Positions 30,823-39,045 of a stretch of DNA of 64,000 bases are shown here, piece after piece. The notes under the pieces were generated by a model. That model was not told the origin of the DNA, ran no database searches, and worked only from the letters and a program-made list of their open reading frames with translations. Source of the DNA: Nesterenkonia lutea (GTDB lineage: Bacteria > Actinomycetota > Actinomycetes > Actinomycetales > Micrococcaceae); contig NZ_JADBED010000001.1 of the NCBI RefSeq assembly GCF_014873955.1, positions 2,046,001 to 2,110,000 on the forward strand, written 5' to 3'. A program made the translations under genes and the position numbers. How positions within the stretch are numbered: position 1 is the stretch's first letter; every line of letters begins with the position of its first letter.

Positions 30823-31598
30823 GCACTGAGACTCCCCTCATCGGGAACCTGCACGCCGCCCCCGCCGAGAACCCGCTGAGCGGGGCCCGCATCGGCGTCG
30901 TCACCTTCCCAGGCACGCTCGATGATCGCGACGCCGCCCGCGCCGTGCGCCTCGGCGGCGGCACCGCCGTGCCCCTGTGGCATGCCGACGAGTCGCTGCA
31001 GGGCGTGGACGCGGTCGTGCTGCCCGGTGGGTTCTCCTATGGGGACTATCTGCGCGCCGGAGCCATCGCCCGCTTCGCCCCCATGATGAACAAGATCATC
31101 GACGCCGCCACCGCCCCCTCGGCAGCCCGCCTTCCGGTGCTGGGCATCTGCAACGGCTTCCAGGTGCTCACCGAGTCCCACCTGCTGCCCGGCTCCATGG
31201 TGAAGAACGAGCACCTGAAGTTCCTCTGCAAAGACCAGGTGCTGCAGGTGGAGAACACCGACACCGCCTGGACCTCGCAGTTCACCGCGGACGAGCTCAT
31301 CGCCGTCCCGCTGAAGAACCAGGACGGCCAGTACCTCGCCGATCCCGCCACGCTGGAGGCGCTGGAGGCCGAGGGCCGGGTGGTCTTCCGCTATGTGGGA
31401 GAGAACCCCAACGGGTCGCGCAACGGCATCGCCGGCATCACCAATGAGACCGGCAACGTCGTGGGCCTGATGCCGCACCCCGAACATGCGGTCGAGGCCG
31501 GCTACGGTCCCGATGACGCCACCGGTATGCGCAGCGGCACCGACGGACTGACCATCTTCACCTCCGTGATCGCATCTCTTGCCGGAGGTGCTCAGTGA
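30819..31598 (+). CDS. purQ: Phosphoribosylformylglycinamidine synthase subunit PurQ (glutaminase)
   Basis: The class-I glutamine amidotransferase subunit that provides ammonia to PurL. The nucleophile Cys is in [11 protein letters not shown]; the His-Glu pair is in [11 protein letters not shown]. At 259 residues it is longer than typical PurQ because about 23 residues ([20 protein letters not shown] and following) precede the usual start [13 protein letters not shown]. The four-base overlap with purS supports the upstream ATG. purL overlaps its end. Confidence 0.95.
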
Positions 31599-34033: not shown

Positions 34034-34411
34034 ATGCAGCACACCCACCGAGCACTTGTCATCGAGGACGACGACGATATTCGTCGCCTTCTCGAGATGG
34101 TGCTGACGCAGGCTGGATTCGGCGTGGACGCGGTCTCCACGGGCAACGAGGGTGTGGCCGCGGCAGCCTCCGGGGACTATGCCCTGATCAGTGTTGACGT
34201 GGGGCTGCCCGATATCAACGGGCTCGAGGTGGTCCGCAGGGTGCGACCGCACTTCACCGGGAAGATCGTCATGGTCAGCGCCCGCTCCAGTGTGGGGGAC
34301 CAGGCCTCCGGCCACGGGGCCGGGGCCGACCTGTACCTCACGAAACCCTTCCGTCCTCGTGAGCTGAAGCAGAAGTTCGTCGATCTCATGTCCCCCGCAG
34401 AGGCCGGCTGA
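34034..34411 (+). CDS. Single-domain response regulator (receiver only)
   Basis: A 125-residue CheY-like receiver with no output domain. Acidic pocket E11/D12/D13, phosphoacceptor D55 in ISVDVGLPDINGLE, S82 in MVSARS and K104 in YLTKPF are all present, so it should be phosphorylatable. The ATG follows GGGAGG. It converges with a glycosyltransferase that ends in an Hpt-like domain and lies 2 kb from a membrane histidine kinase, so it most likely belongs to their signalling path. Confidence 0.9.
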   Translation: MQHTHRALVIEDDDDIRRLLEMVLTQAGFGVDAVSTGNEGVAAAASGDYALISVDVGLPDINGLEVVRRVRPHFTGKIVMVSARSSVGDQASGHGAGADLYLTKPFRPRELKQKFVDLMSPAEAG

Positions 34412-34429
34412 GCAGCTTCGCCGCCGCAG

Positions 34430-34450
34430 GTCGCGGAGCGCACCCGCGAC
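34430..34450. terminator. Hairpin between convergent receiver and glycosyltransferase genes
   Basis: GTCGCGG and CCGCGAC pair around AGCGCAC. An outer pair GCAGAGGC (within the receiver gene end) and GCCTCTGC (about 34454-34461) can extend it. It could end transcription from both sides. Confidence 0.5.
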
Positions 34451-34462
34451 GGGCGCCTCTGC

Positions 34463-36316
34463 TCAGGCCGTGATGAACCGTCCGCGGATCTCCTCGACGG
34501 TCTGCTCACCGATGGTTGCGATGATCGCCAGCTCGCGGCGCAGCGCGACGTAGTCCTCGGAGTCCAGATGGGCGCTGAAGTCTCTGGCGCACTGGGCCAG
34601 GCGCTCTGCTCCCAGCATCTCGGAGGAGACCCTGATGCTTGCGAGAGCGTCGGCCGTCGCAGTGTGGTCCTCTGCCGCTGCCGCGAGGCGCAGATTCGCC
34701 CAGCGTCTCGGCCAGATGATTCCGAAGGTGTTGACCAGCTCTCGGGCGAAGTCCTCCGCGCCGTCGAGCTCCTCGGCCAGGGTGGTGATGATCTCGGCAT
34801 CCAGCAGGGGCAGCTCGAGCAGTCCTGCCCGCGGGCCTGCCGCAGGCAGGAGCAACATTCCATCGGCGTTCCGGGCGGTCTTCGCCCATGAGGTCTGGCC
34901 CCTGGCCATCCGGTTCATCGCGCGGGGGTAGTAGAGGTAGGTCAGGTAGACGTAGCCGAGGTACACCAGCCCGTAGAAGATGCCGCTGGCCAGGCTGATG
35001 TCCTCGCGGCAGGTGTACTTGTAGAGGAGCCCCCAGAGGAAATACGGGAGGATGAGGAACACGGCGGCCAGCAGCACGATCCACTCCAGCGAGCCTCCGG
35101 CCGTGAATTGGATCCGCCCCTCGGTCACGGCCAGCACCAGCAGCAGCGGGCCCAGCAGCAGGTTGATCATCAGCAGCCAGGGCTGGCTCATGAAATAGTG
35201 GATCTCCGCCCATCCTGAGCGACGCAGGTTGCCGCTGCGTCGAAGCGGCGGAAGCAGCTCGGCGCACTCCATGTTCCCCTGCGCCCAACGCGTGCGCTGG
35301 GTCAGCAGCCGCCGAGTATAGGGCAGGGCCTCCTGAGAGACGTGGGCCTCGGGGACATAGTGAGTGCGGTGCCCGCCGGCGATGATGTTCAGCCCGAGCT
35401 CATAGTCCTCGCAGAGCTTCCTGCCCCAGGGCTGGCCGTACTCCGCGTCCAGGTCATCGAGCACCGAGAGCCGGGTGAACTGGCCGTTTCCACCCATGCC
35501 CACCGTTCCGGTCTTCACGCGCAGCATCTGCATGGCCGAGTTCGAGGTGCGAAACTCGATGTCCTGCATCCGGATCAGCGTCCTGCCCAGAAAGTTCTTC
35601 AGTCCTCCGGAGAGGGGACGGGGTCGGCGATCCCCGCGGTTCTTCATCCAGACCTCCAGCTGCACGGCGCCCACGGTGTCCTCACCGAAGGCGTCAGGCC
35701 CTGCCAGCAGGTCAAGGGCGTTGCCGGAGAGGAAGCCGTCCGCGTCGAGCACACCGATCACCGTGCGGCGGCGCTGGCTCCGGTCTTGGCTCGCCGCTGC
35801 CGAGATCACCCGATAGGCCGCGTTCAGGGCATGGCCCTTGCCCGTCCTCGCCTCGGGCCGGCGTCGCGAGATCAGATGAACCTTGTCGTCGAAGTCCTGC
35901 AGTTTTCGCACGATCGAAGCGGTGGCGTCTTCGCTGGCGTCATCGATGACCCAGACGTGGAGCCCAGGAAAAGTTGTCCGTGCTGCGGACACCGTCTCCG
36001 CGATGACGCTCTCCTCATCGCGGCAGGGGATCATCACATGCCAGGTCAGCGCGTCAGCGCTTCCCGGTCGGCTCGCTCTGCGCACCACATAGGTGTGCAC
36101 GAGCAGGGAGATGTAGGTCAGCGCCAGCGAGGAGATGACGGTGACCGTGATCAGACCGGCGTCGCGGACCGGGTGCGCCCCGAAATCACCGAAGGCCCCG
36201 GAGAAGCAGAACACCGTGGCGGCGAGGGCGCCATAGAGGGCACAGCCGAGGAAGACCAGCGGCGAGACGCGGAGGGTGCGCTGCCGGGTCGACACATTCC
36301 TGGGACCCGAATACAT
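34463..36316 (-). CDS. Processive family-2 glycosyltransferase fused to a degenerate Hpt domain
   Basis: A 617-residue membrane enzyme. Two N-terminal helices (about 20-40 and 55-78) precede a GT2 domain with VIDDASED (123-130), DAD (191-193), ED (303-304) and QRTRW (340-344), the pattern of processive synthases (cellulose, hyaluronan, chitin type). About four further helices follow (375-465). After a Pro/Gly linker, residues 503-617 resemble an Hpt four-helix bundle: ASIRVSSEMLGA aligns with the Hpt core, but the phosphorylated His is Ala559 and the following Lys is Arg562. It is transcribed after the histidine kinase, 12 bases apart. Likely makes an exopolysaccharide under phosphorelay-linked control; the polymer is unknown. 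Confidence 0.85.
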   Translation of the reverse strand: MYSGPRNVSTRQRTLRVSPLVFLGCALYGALAATVFCFSGAFGDFGAHPVRDAGLITVTVISSLALTYISLLVHTYVVRRASRPGSADALTWHVMIPCRDEESVIAETVSAARTTFPGLHVWVIDDASEDATASIVRKLQDFDDKVHLISRRRPEARTGKGHALNAAYRVISAAASQDRSQRRRTVIGVLDADGFLSGNALDLLAGPDAFGEDTVGAVQLEVWMKNRGDRRPRPLSGGLKNFLGRTLIRMQDIEFRTSNSAMQMLRVKTGTVGMGGNGQFTRLSVLDDLDAEYGQPWGRKLCEDYELGLNIIAGGHRTHYVPEAHVSQEALPYTRRLLTQRTRWAQGNMECAELLPPLRRSGNLRRSGWAEIHYFMSQPWLLMINLLLGPLLLVLAVTEGRIQFTAGGSLEWIVLLAAVFLILPYFLWGLLYKYTCREDISLASGIFYGLVYLGYVYLTYLYYPRAMNRMARGQTSWAKTARNADGMLLLPAAGPRAGLLELPLLDAEIITTLAEELDGAEDFARELVNTFGIIWPRRWANLRLAAAAEDHTATADALASIRVSSEMLGAERLAQCARDFSAHLDSEDYVALRRELAIIATIGEQTVEEIRGRFITA

Positions 36317-36328
36317 GGTCCGGCCCGG

Positions 36329-38035
36329 TCAGTCGCCGGCGGCGTGCGCACGCCGACTGATGTGGTGGTCGAGCGTGAACCGGAAGCGGGAACCCTCGCC
36401 GGGCGCGGAGCGCACCGTGATGGACCCCCCATGGGCCTCGATGATGGACTGCGAGAGCGCGAGTCCCAGACCGGCTCCCGCGGTGGCGGACTGACGTGCC
36501 GCCGGCGCCCGATAGAAGGGGGTGAAGACCTGGCTGGCCTCCTTCTGGCTCATCCCGGGCCCGTCATCAGAGACCTGCACGAAGACTCCCTCGGCTCCCT
36601 CCGGCACGGTGCCGGCCGTCACCGTGACGTGACCGCCCGTCTGGGTGTACTTCAAGGCATTGCTGATCAGGTTGTCGATGACCTGGGCAAGACGCAGGCT
36701 GTCGGCGATGACGGGCACTGAGCTCTCCAGCTGCGTCTCCAGCGAGATCCCCCGCGTCACCGCCAGCGGGTGAAATCCCTTCACGCAGTCGGCGACGAGC
36801 TCCTCCAGGTCGAGGCTGCGCATATCCAGGGTCAGCCGTCCCACCACGGCCTGCTGCTCCAGCAGCAGATCCTCCACCAGCTTGCTCAGCCTCTCGGCAT
36901 TGCGCCGAATCACCGAGAGCTGCTCCAGGGAGTCCTCCCGGGCGGCGGAGACCGGCAGCTCCTGCAGCGCGTCCTCGGTGAAGTCGGCGAAGCCGACGAT
37001 GGAGGTCAGCGGGGTCCGCATCTCGTGGGAGACCGTCGCGATGATCTCGTGCTGCGCACGCAGCAGGTGGTGCTCCTCGGTGATGTCGCGAAAGATCAGA
37101 AAGATGGCGTCCCGGGAGCCGTCCTCGGCGAGCACAGCTCGCGCGCTCACGGTGATGACCCGCTGCTCCGGCCCAGGAGCACCGGCCAAGAAGTTGAAGT
37201 TGTCGAACTCCTCTCCTCTGTTCGCACGCGCCGCGGGACGACTGTCCGGAGGAATCGAGGTTCCGTCGGTGTAGAAGATCAGGTGTCCGGCCTCGGTGGG
37301 GTCGGGGTTCCCCTCTGAGGAGACCACGGCATGGATCTCTCGCTGAGCGCGGTTCGTCATCACGTCATTGCCGTGGGCATCCATCACCAGGACCCCAACG
37401 TTGAGGTTCTCCCCCACGTCGCGCAGGAGCCGGTCACTGCGTTCGCGCTGCATGCCCATCTTGCGCTCACCGGCGAGCGCTCGCTCCATCTCGGCCCGGC
37501 TGGCCTCGACCCGCTGCAAGATTCCGATCACGGCGAGGGACATCACGGCCAGTGCGACCGGCAGCACGGTGTAGCGGGAGAACGAGGCGACGTTCAGCGG
37601 CTCGGTGATCACCGCCAGCGAGGGGATGCTGATGGTCAGGATCACCATTCCCACCGCAAGCCCGGCTCCCGCGCGCCGAAATCTCACCACGAGCCAGAGG
37701 GAGGGCACCAGGCTCAGCGTGGACAGGACCGCGCCGTCCGGCAGGGTGGCGACGCGGCAGATGCCGCAGGCGACGATGCTGATGACCGGAACGGTCCACT
37801 CCAGCGGCCGTGGCAGCCCCTGACGTGGGGCGAAGACGACGGCGACCGTGGCCGCCAGCAGCAGCCCCAGGCCCAGCGCGACTCCGGCCAGCGAGGTGGT
37901 CTCGGGTTCGTAGATCGCCAGCGCCAGCACTGGAGCTGCGAGCACCACGAGGAAGGTGAGCTGTTGAACGAGAGAGAAAGATTTGCCGCTGGAGTGGTAG
38001 AGCAGCGCCCCCGCAAGGGTCCCGATACGCGTCAT
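36329..38035 (-). CDS. Membrane sensor histidine kinase with PAS domain
   Basis: A 568-residue kinase: six or so N-terminal helices (about 25-175) without a large external loop, a coiled region (176-205), a PAS-like domain (about 206-320), then HisKA with H337 in TVSHEMRTPL, and HATPase with DNLISNALKYT, DDGPGMS and AGLGLALS. The membrane part looks like an intramembrane or ligand-binding sensor. It is the first gene of the operon with the glycosyltransferase; the likely receiver is the convergent single-domain protein at 34034. GTAGGG precedes the ATG. Signal unknown. Confidence 0.92.
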   Translation of the reverse strand: MTRIGTLAGALLYHSSGKSFSLVQQLTFLVVLAAPVLALAIYEPETTSLAGVALGLGLLLAATVAVVFAPRQGLPRPLEWTVPVISIVACGICRVATLPDGAVLSTLSLVPSLWLVVRFRRAGAGLAVGMVILTISIPSLAVITEPLNVASFSRYTVLPVALAVMSLAVIGILQRVEASRAEMERALAGERKMGMQRERSDRLLRDVGENLNVGVLVMDAHGNDVMTNRAQREIHAVVSSEGNPDPTEAGHLIFYTDGTSIPPDSRPAARANRGEEFDNFNFLAGAPGPEQRVITVSARAVLAEDGSRDAIFLIFRDITEEHHLLRAQHEIIATVSHEMRTPLTSIVGFADFTEDALQELPVSAAREDSLEQLSVIRRNAERLSKLVEDLLLEQQAVVGRLTLDMRSLDLEELVADCVKGFHPLAVTRGISLETQLESSVPVIADSLRLAQVIDNLISNALKYTQTGGHVTVTAGTVPEGAEGVFVQVSDDGPGMSQKEASQVFTPFYRAPAARQSATAGAGLGLALSQSIIEAHGGSITVRSAPGEGSRFRFTLDHHISRRAHAAGD

Positions 38036-38091: not shown

Positions 38092-39045
38092 TCAGAGTCC
38101 GAGCGAGGACTGCACCTCGACGAGTGCCTGTGCGGAGCTGCGCAGCGACTCGGCCTCGTGTTCTGAGAAGGGAGTGGTCGTCACCGGCTGCACTCCCCGG
38201 GCGGAGACCACGCTGGGGATGGACAGCGCCACACCGCTGATGTCGAGGAAGCCGTCCAGCACGCTGCTCACCGGCAGGATGGCGTGCTCATCATGGAGGA
38301 TCGCCTCCACGATCCGGGTCGCGGAGAGGCCGATGGCGTAGTTGGTGGTGCCCTTTCCTGCGATGACCTGATAGGCGGCGTGGCGGACTTCGTCGGAGAG
38401 GGTGTCCAGCTCATCGGCGCTGAAGACCCGAGCGCCTTCGCGCTCCCAGTCCAGCAGCGGGGTCACGCCGATGCTGGCGGCGGACCAGAGCGGGAACTCG
38501 GTGTCCCCATGCTCCCCGACGATATGGGCATGCACGCTGGACTGGGCCACCCCGGCCCGCCGAGCGAGCTTCCAGCGCAGCCTCGCCGTGTCCAGCACGG
38601 TCCCGGAGGAGAAGACCCGGCCGCTGGGCAGCCCGGAGATCTGCTGGGCGGCCACGGTCAGCACGTCACAGGGGTTGGTGACCAACAGGTACACCGCCTC
38701 AGGGGCGCGTTCGAGCAGCTTCGGAAGCATGCTTCGAAGGATCTCCACATTGGTGCCCGCGAGGTCCAGCCGCGTCTGGCCGGGGTGCTGCTTGGCCCCG
38801 GCAGTGATCACGACGACGTCGGCGCCCTCCACGTGCTTCAGATCCGCGCCGCCGTCGATGTCGCTGGCGCCGGTGAACTGGCTTCCGTGGGCCAGGTCCA
38901 GGACCTCAGCCTCCACCCGGGCGGCGTCGACGTCGTAAAGCCGCACGTGCCGGGCAGAGCCTCTGATCATGGCCGCATAGGCGGTGGCTGTGCCGACGCT
39001 GCCGGCTCCGACGATGGCCAGGGTGGAGTTCTCGATGACGCTCAT
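38092..39045 (-). CDS. ldh: L-lactate dehydrogenase
   Basis: NAD-dependent interconversion of pyruvate and L-lactate. 317 residues with GAGSVG near residue 14, AGAKQHPGQTRLDL (Gln at the substrate-specificity site, which marks lactate rather than malate dehydrogenase), and catalytic His in GEHGDTEF. TAGGCT ends six bases before the ATG, suggesting a leaderless transcript. Confidence 0.93.
   Translation of the reverse strand: MSVIENSTLAIVGAGSVGTATAYAAMIRGSARHVRLYDVDAARVEAEVLDLAHGSQFTGASDIDGGADLKHVEGADVVVITAGAKQHPGQTRLDLAGTNVEILRSMLPKLLERAPEAVYLLVTNPCDVLTVAAQQISGLPSGRVFSSGTVLDTARLRWKLARRAGVAQSSVHAHIVGEHGDTEFPLWSAASIGVTPLLDWEREGARVFSADELDTLSDEVRHAAYQVIAGKGTTNYAIGLSATRIVEAILHDEHAILPVSSVLDGFLDISGVALSIPSVVSARGVQPVTTTPFSEHEAESLRSSAQALVEVQSSLGL

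Follow-up and report, generated by a model that had tools for sequence, protein, structure and literature searches.

A putative surface-polysaccharide synthase of Nesterenkonia lutea ends in a domain that is predicted to adopt the fold of Hpt proteins and has lost the phospho-accepting His, and its gene adjoins those of a membrane sensor kinase and of a receiver protein that consists of little else than the receiver domain. The surroundings of the lost His are conserved among homologues, the three genes are tightly associated across several genera, and similar His-less Hpt-like proteins form a wider family that includes the domain, for which the name psHpt was coined in this analysis and whose members are often encoded next to OmpR-type regulators. 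We think it probable, if by no means certain, that the three proteins form a docking module in which a two-component system directly and post-translationally controls the synthase via its tail.

Results

Organization of the locus

The locus lies in the 64-kb window, that is, the whole stretch of DNA that was analysed, from a genome of 2.96 Mb, and is flanked by two ORFs that were identified by eye, one purL-like at 31595 and the other lactate-dehydrogenase-like at 38092. The lone receiver gene (34034..34411, + strand; 125 aa, its start being an ATG inside a longer listed ORF) is convergent with a pair of genes on the - strand, which encode the GT2 synthase (34463..36316, 617 aa) with its C-terminal His-less Hpt-like domain and a sensor histidine kinase (36329..38035, 568 aa) that is a membrane protein; the ORFs of the window agree with the coordinates given to the three genes in the first-pass annotation. 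The kinase stop and the synthase start are separated by a gap of 12 bases and, judging solely by this spacing, the two genes are likely co-transcribed. The stops of the receiver and synthase genes lie 51 bases apart, and an inverted repeat read by eye at 34408-34466, CTGAGCAG / CTGCTCAG, extends across the gap between them, where it perhaps serves as a terminator shared by both genes.

The kinase and receiver have the hallmarks of a two-component pair. The kinase matches the Pfam models HisKA and HATPase_c, along with a sub-threshold match to PAS_4, its N-terminus contains hydrophobic segments as judged from hydropathy, and H337, by our own count, is the presumed His of HisKA. The receiver matches Response_reg (1e-21) as its sole Pfam family, and the scan of its 125 aa found no output domain. 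The acidic run E11-D13 and the residues D55, S82 and K104 are invariant or nearly so in 15 aligned rows, in line with the earlier description of a convergent, receiver-only protein with a full active site. From the protein families, the kinase would be expected to phosphorylate the lone receiver.

The synthase and its relatives

The synthase matches PF13641 (1.7e-25), and this match together with the motif positions places the GT2 catalytic region at residues 94-347 (35276..36037, - strand). The D, DAD, ED and QRTRW motifs initially noted in the protein were located as DDAS at 125, LDADG at 190, ED at 303 and QRTRW at 340, and the corresponding D, DxD, ED and QxxRW motifs are invariant across 69 rows; with membrane helices around the GT-A domain, the protein has the features of a processive GT2 enzyme. 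The nearest folds to the full-length predicted model (pLDDT 87.1, pTM 0.87) are PcManGT, BcsA and hyaluronan synthase. Hydropathy indicates two segments N-terminal and three C-terminal to the catalytic domain, and the last of these appears in the predicted model as a split helix (442-457/459-471). With this odd number of segments the tail would be extracellular, unless the last post-catalytic segment fails to cross the membrane.

With 535.2 bits, the synthase also passes the curated cut-off of 520 bits of the NCBIfam model NF053846, 'glyco_with_XrtP', from which it could be taken for the glycosyltransferase of an exosortase XrtP system with a merely incidental tail. We give this hardly any credence, as the exosortase model PF09721 is matched in none of 20 genomes with psHpt-bearing GTs as opposed to 6 of 18 with tail-less relatives, and a single branch with a support of 100 parts the psHpt-bearing from the tail-less GTs. 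In those six genomes the exosortase adjoins the GT, and in three it scores above the Pfam cut-off. In the N. lutea genome (G000) no PF09721 match was found, and an XrtP-associated identity of its synthase was rejected. The NF053846 GTs and other tail-less relatives are nevertheless the nearest proteins outside the psHpt-GT group, with 39-46% identity over the catalytic part; they differ in that 16 of 16 are devoid of a psHpt domain, a receiver in the flank and a kinase in the flank, and some have a neighbouring exosortase.

An Hpt-like tail without the phosphorylated His

The tail domain spans residues ~507-614 (34475..34798, - strand) as delimited by the helices in the models. Taken alone, the synthase scores 13.9-16.1 bits against PF01627, for which the Pfam cut-off is 24.6, and a PF01627 call is present in 9 of the 120 homologues listed; a single-sequence search of solved structures gave nothing at E 0.01, and an NCBIfam scan of the excised domain gave no match at E 1. 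The similarity emerges at the level of the family, where all 18 members scanned match Hpt at E <=1, with 4.1e-6 as the best value. A profile of the domain finds the Hpt protein 7c1i as its best match among solved chains (E 0.0015), and of the eight chains listed up to E 10, five are Hpts. The predicted structure (pLDDT 89, pTM 0.83) consists of four helices arranged in the Hpt fold, and a fold search with it returned exclusively Hpts at ranks 1-24. The family profile and the predicted fold thus agree on the Hpt-like C-terminus that the first-pass annotation had proposed, and in the profile comparison with Hpt models that it had called for, the C-terminal region is Hpt-like at the level of the family. 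No Hpt match was found in the N. lutea genome at E 0.001, and the psHpt profile matches the synthase tail only.

An alignment of 114 rows, consisting of the query and 113 of the 120 listed proteins (P0001 being the window's own; seven proteins shorter than 590 aa were excluded), supports the reading that Ala559 (codon 34640..34642, - strand) occupies the position of the phosphorylated His and Arg562 (34631..34633, - strand) that of the conserved Lys. At the former, Ala is found in 70 rows, Gly in 38, Glu in two (one of them P0114), Ser, Val and Asp in one each and a gap in one, the column being meaningless for P0113, which ends out of frame; His is found in none of the 114. Position 562 is Arg in 98 rows, Gln in seven, Lys in five, His in two and Ala and Leu in one each, so that a basic Arg or Lys is present in 103, and Asp556, Ser560 and Gly569 are each conserved in 113 of 114 rows, although the rows do not represent independent cases since many, including many of those from Brevibacterium, are near copies. 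As to the conserved surface that was asked for in homologues, the residues D556, S560, R/K562 and G569 around the lost His are conserved. The loss of the His does not look like an accident, as the domain appears to be conserved even though the site cannot accept phosphate. Without the phospho-accepting His of PF01627 in any of the 114 rows, the tail is better described as Hpt-like than as a phosphotransfer domain. From canonical Hpts such as HptB (7c1i), the ArcB Hpt (1a0b) and Ypd1 (1c02) it differs in the missing His, in the Lys that is mostly replaced by Arg and in the subsequent residue, which is a Gly directly after the conserved Lys in canonical Hpts and a Val in the synthase tail.

Receiver phosphatases are also found among four-helix bundles, namely CheZ and the phosphatase face of HisKA with its ExxT motif, and a tail of this kind could reset the receiver at the membrane. 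Both the fold and the expected contact face would suit such a role, and a Thr is present at +4 from the His site in 38 of 93 stand-alone psHpts (see below), reminiscent of ExxT. The synthase family itself makes a phosphatase improbable, with Val at +4 in 109 of 114 rows, Ala or Gly at the site in 108 and, at +1, Ser in place of an acid in 113.

Association of the three genes

Kinase, synthase and receiver occur together in Nesterenkonia, Enteractinococcus, Brevibacterium, Brachybacterium and Arthrobacter. In all of the 21 loci where the synthase is complete, the kinase and receiver adjoin it, a count in which three genomes are represented twice (L005/L035, L006/L034 and L012/L039); the receiver is convergent in 18 of these, and three Arthrobacter-type loci contain the same genes in another order. 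Among 12 loci from four genera, only the kinase, GT and receiver families are common to all four, while one further gene cluster links two Nesterenkonia loci with one from Brevibacterium and another links one Brachybacterium with one Brevibacterium locus. The co-occurrence of the genes, suggested earlier as a check, is borne out within Nesterenkonia, where the psHpt-GT is found in 8 of 30 genomes and the lone receiver lies next to it in the same eight (E 2.4e-36 or better); six of the other 22 genomes have weaker receiver matches, the best at 1.2e-27, in frames of 261-290 aa.

The association follows the domain and not the glycosyltransferase. Across the order, a sample of 396 genomes, N. lutea included, yielded 29 GT relatives at E 1e-80, and the 1.5-kb flank contains a receiver for 13 of 13 GTs with the domain as opposed to 0 of 16 without it; the corresponding numbers for the kinase are 11 of 13 and 0 of 16, and for the two remaining domain-bearing GTs the kinase is located slightly further out. 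In L070 and L088 (G421), the psHpt-synthase gene is broken up into two frames that overlap, with the receiver and kinase still in place. At L031:6283-8181 and L055, a Nesterenkonia locus, it is the kinase gene that reads in two frames, of which one is long and the other a 98-aa piece of the kinase end, perhaps as the result of a frameshift.

Stand-alone psHpt proteins and their regulators

Proteins that consist of a psHpt domain without an attached enzyme were reached via contig L044 and then by an Hpt search across the order. They are encoded in frames of 120-234 aa (for example at L119-L130, L134 and L044:2298-2717) and have the motif D-A-V-L-S-L-K-T-S-S, in which the His site is occupied by Leu; an NCBIfam scan of two of them gave nothing at E 0.01. 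A profile of the stand-alone psHpts has matches in 92 of 197 Micrococcaceae genomes, eight synthase-bearing ones included, and in 16 of 32 genera, and in 31 of 345 genomes sampled across the class, where several of the weaker matches, located in long frames, may be canonical Hpts; the domain is thus frequent in Micrococcaceae and also occurs in other actinomycetes. The synthase case described in the first-pass annotation is real, but it is not a single one, being part of a wider His-less Hpt-like family that is often accompanied by DNA-binding regulators.

From 102 psHpt loci that were read, nine repeated domains were dropped to leave 93, a chosen and mostly best-scoring part of the matches, so that the rates given here may be lower among the remainder. 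The His site is occupied by Leu in 80 of the 93, Ile in seven, Gln and Arg in two each, Val in one and His in one. The sole His-bearing copy, L129:2478-3074 (the same as in L147), has a Thr in place of the Lys and is possibly a relic or a revertant. A receiver protein is present in the short flank of 64 of the 93, in convergent orientation in 61, in tandem in two and divergent in one, and none was seen in the short flank read for the other 29. All 61 convergent regulators (246-446 aa) match both Response_reg and Trans_reg_C, which marks them as OmpR-type.

Fusions to signal peptidases and surface-matrix contexts

A second membrane enzyme with a psHpt domain at its C-terminus, a SipW-like signal peptidase I, was found in five loci, four from one Micrococcaceae genus and one from another family (L234:1175-2215, L235:1256-2368, L237:959-2200, L239:1839-2861 and L246:1348-2328). 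All five fusions score above the cut-off of TIGR02228, and 'SipW-like' is a loose name, since the scores against the SipW model, 55-61 bits, fall far short of the cut-off of 190. The fusion gene is convergent with that of a receiver protein in 5 of 5 loci, and the two receiver proteins scanned are OmpR-type. The fusions came from 16 loci that were selected because their open frames are long or their taxa distant; of the others, L243, L244 and L248 are part of long frames with additional matches to kinase and receiver models, L241 matches poorly and lies within a kinase, and the remainder look stand-alone.

Further psHpt genes lie near genes for surface structures. In the Arthrobacter-type loci L229 and L233, sets of psHpt, kinase and regulator genes flank a cluster that encodes a SipW-like signal peptidase and exported proteins with alternate, SipW-dependent-type signal peptides, and in L229 a synthase module is found across the mfd gene from this cluster. 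In L231, a distance of ~11 kb that contains Flp pilus assembly genes separates a psHpt match from a receiver of the same subfamily, so that one psHpt and its kinase-regulator genes are on opposite sides of Flp pilus genes. The surface matrix may be a common theme of these contexts; in B. subtilis, the matrix proteins TasA and TapA are cleaved by SipW (PMC4551309).

The stand-alone proteins and the fusions bear in opposite ways on the possibility that the tail sequesters the receiver or competes for it with the kinase, with the synthase feeding back on signalling. The plant pseudo-HPt AHP6 is a precedent for this type of action, and 61 of the 93 stand-alone psHpts are convergent with OmpR-type regulators and have no enzyme attached. 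The fusion to two different membrane enzymes suggests instead that the enzyme is the target, and in the GT module sequestration of the receiver alone would be without a known consequence, as that receiver has no output domain. We therefore regard sequestration as unlikely for the synthase.

Kinship and co-inheritance of psHpt and receiver

A profile of the lone receivers was run against the 197 genomes, and its first 110 matches were compared by distance with the 150 psHpt matches listed. A listed psHpt lies within 3 kb of 81 of these receivers, eight of which are synthase-linked, and within 20 kb of 16 more; the other 13 are beyond 20 kb, six of them in genomes without a listed psHpt, which indicates that the receiver subfamily also occurs apart from psHpt. 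The eight synthase-linked receivers rank first, partly by construction, with seven of the eight being either in the profile itself or in the genome of one of its rows. The divergence of psHpts and receivers is correlated over 64 pairs (Mantel r 0.713, compared to a mean of 0.584 after re-pairing within the nine genomes that hold several pairs, with 0 of 2000 re-pairings as high), a result that speaks for co-inheritance and not for contact, since linked genes diverge together without touching.

In three trees, which were built by a quick method, are unrooted, carry long-branch warnings and in two cases include few columns, one branch each sets apart the GT-fused psHpts, the lone receivers and the psHpt-bearing GTs, with supports of 93, 99 and 100, respectively. 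As there is one split per tree, a single origin is the simplest explanation, and the module is likely to have arisen a single time, from a system composed of a kinase, an OmpR-type regulator and a psHpt, in which the psHpt would have been fused to a GT2 enzyme and the regulator would have shed its DNA-binding domain; the direction of these events is our inference, since the trees are unrooted.

Covariation between the domain and the receiver gave no signal. The mutual information from 79 pairs, with an effective number of 54 and accordingly low power, yielded an AUC of 0.47 at the chosen interface positions, and at the same effective number none of the 153 chosen interface pairs fell within the top 1%, where 1.5 would be expected. 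This result fits a tail that is purely structural or serves for oligomerization, with the adjacent two-component genes regulating something else, and such a role would also agree with the habit of four-helix bundles, which often dimerize. We nevertheless find it quite unlikely, as the domain and the receiver gene go together in 13 of 13 cases as opposed to 0 of 16 without the domain, and psHpt and the receiver subfamily are found together in other contexts as well.

Discussion

Our preferred explanation for the synthase module is that its tail serves as a docking site. First, the membrane kinase would phosphorylate the lone receiver by the usual phosphotransfer. Next, the receiver, in one of its phosphorylation states, would dock on the psHpt domain of the synthase, presumably with the face by which receivers normally meet Hpt domains. 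Finally, the phosphate would stop at the tail and not be passed on, as psHpt has no phospho-acceptor His, and docking itself would alter the activity, partners or localization of the synthase and thereby, possibly, polymer output. A docking site was already suggested in the first-pass annotation, none of whose three grounds for refutation was borne out, and the Hpt-likeness, the conserved residues and the co-occurrence of the genes speak in its favour, whereas the covariation at the interface, in an underpowered analysis, does not.

The proposed arrangement can be compared with several known systems. Among bacterial GT2 enzymes that make polymers, control by c-di-GMP is the best known, and the PilZ tail of BcsA switches the enzyme with this messenger. 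In the N. lutea synthase the C-terminal domain is Hpt-like instead of PilZ, and the enzyme could be switched or placed by contact with the receiver much as BcsA is by its PilZ tail with c-di-GMP. GGDEF was found in only 1 of 22 psHpt-GT genomes and not in that of N. lutea, and the other 21 therefore appear to lack the c-di-GMP route that BcsA uses. Plants are known to possess pseudo-HPts, and those of the AHP6 type are similarly Hpt-like, have likewise lost the His and are thought to bind receivers; however, they are stand-alone inhibitors of a phosphorelay, whereas here the domain is located on a synthase and encoded beside a receiver gene. Single-domain response regulators that act by protein contact, CheY on FliM and DivK on DivL, are described in PMC12471899. 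The lone receiver resembles these in being a receiver without an output domain that is presumed to bind a partner, although in this case that partner would be part of a polysaccharide synthase, namely its His-less Hpt domain.

No title or abstract on a GT2-Hpt fusion, a SipW-Hpt fusion or a bacterial family of His-less Hpts was found in a search that covered mainly the freely accessible literature. A two-component survey, in its passage on filtering, dropped His-less sequences solely among hypothetical or partial proteins, which reduced their number from 17,727 to 17,724 (PMC4558063). That this His filter had hidden the psHpt family was considered and rejected, as the change described in that passage explains little.

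Two-component systems are usually understood to lead from a sensor to transcription. The parts of the present module are known as such, and what appears to be new is this variant of two-component control, the wider psHpt family being the larger claim. Tentatively, and with a little short of even confidence, we suggest that psHpt is a general receiver-docking adaptor, which modulates OmpR-type regulators when it stands alone and, when attached to the C-terminus of a membrane enzyme such as the GT2 synthase or the SipW-like signal peptidase, subjects matrix-building enzymes directly to a two-component system in a way that bypasses transcription and c-di-GMP. Since the N. lutea module is simple, with one kinase, one lone receiver and one psHpt match, whether a dead Hpt serves as a dock on an enzyme is a directly testable question. 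If docking is true, a widespread actinobacterial domain would let kinases directly steer the enzymes of surface polymers and matrix proteins, and it may modulate many OmpR-type regulators as well.
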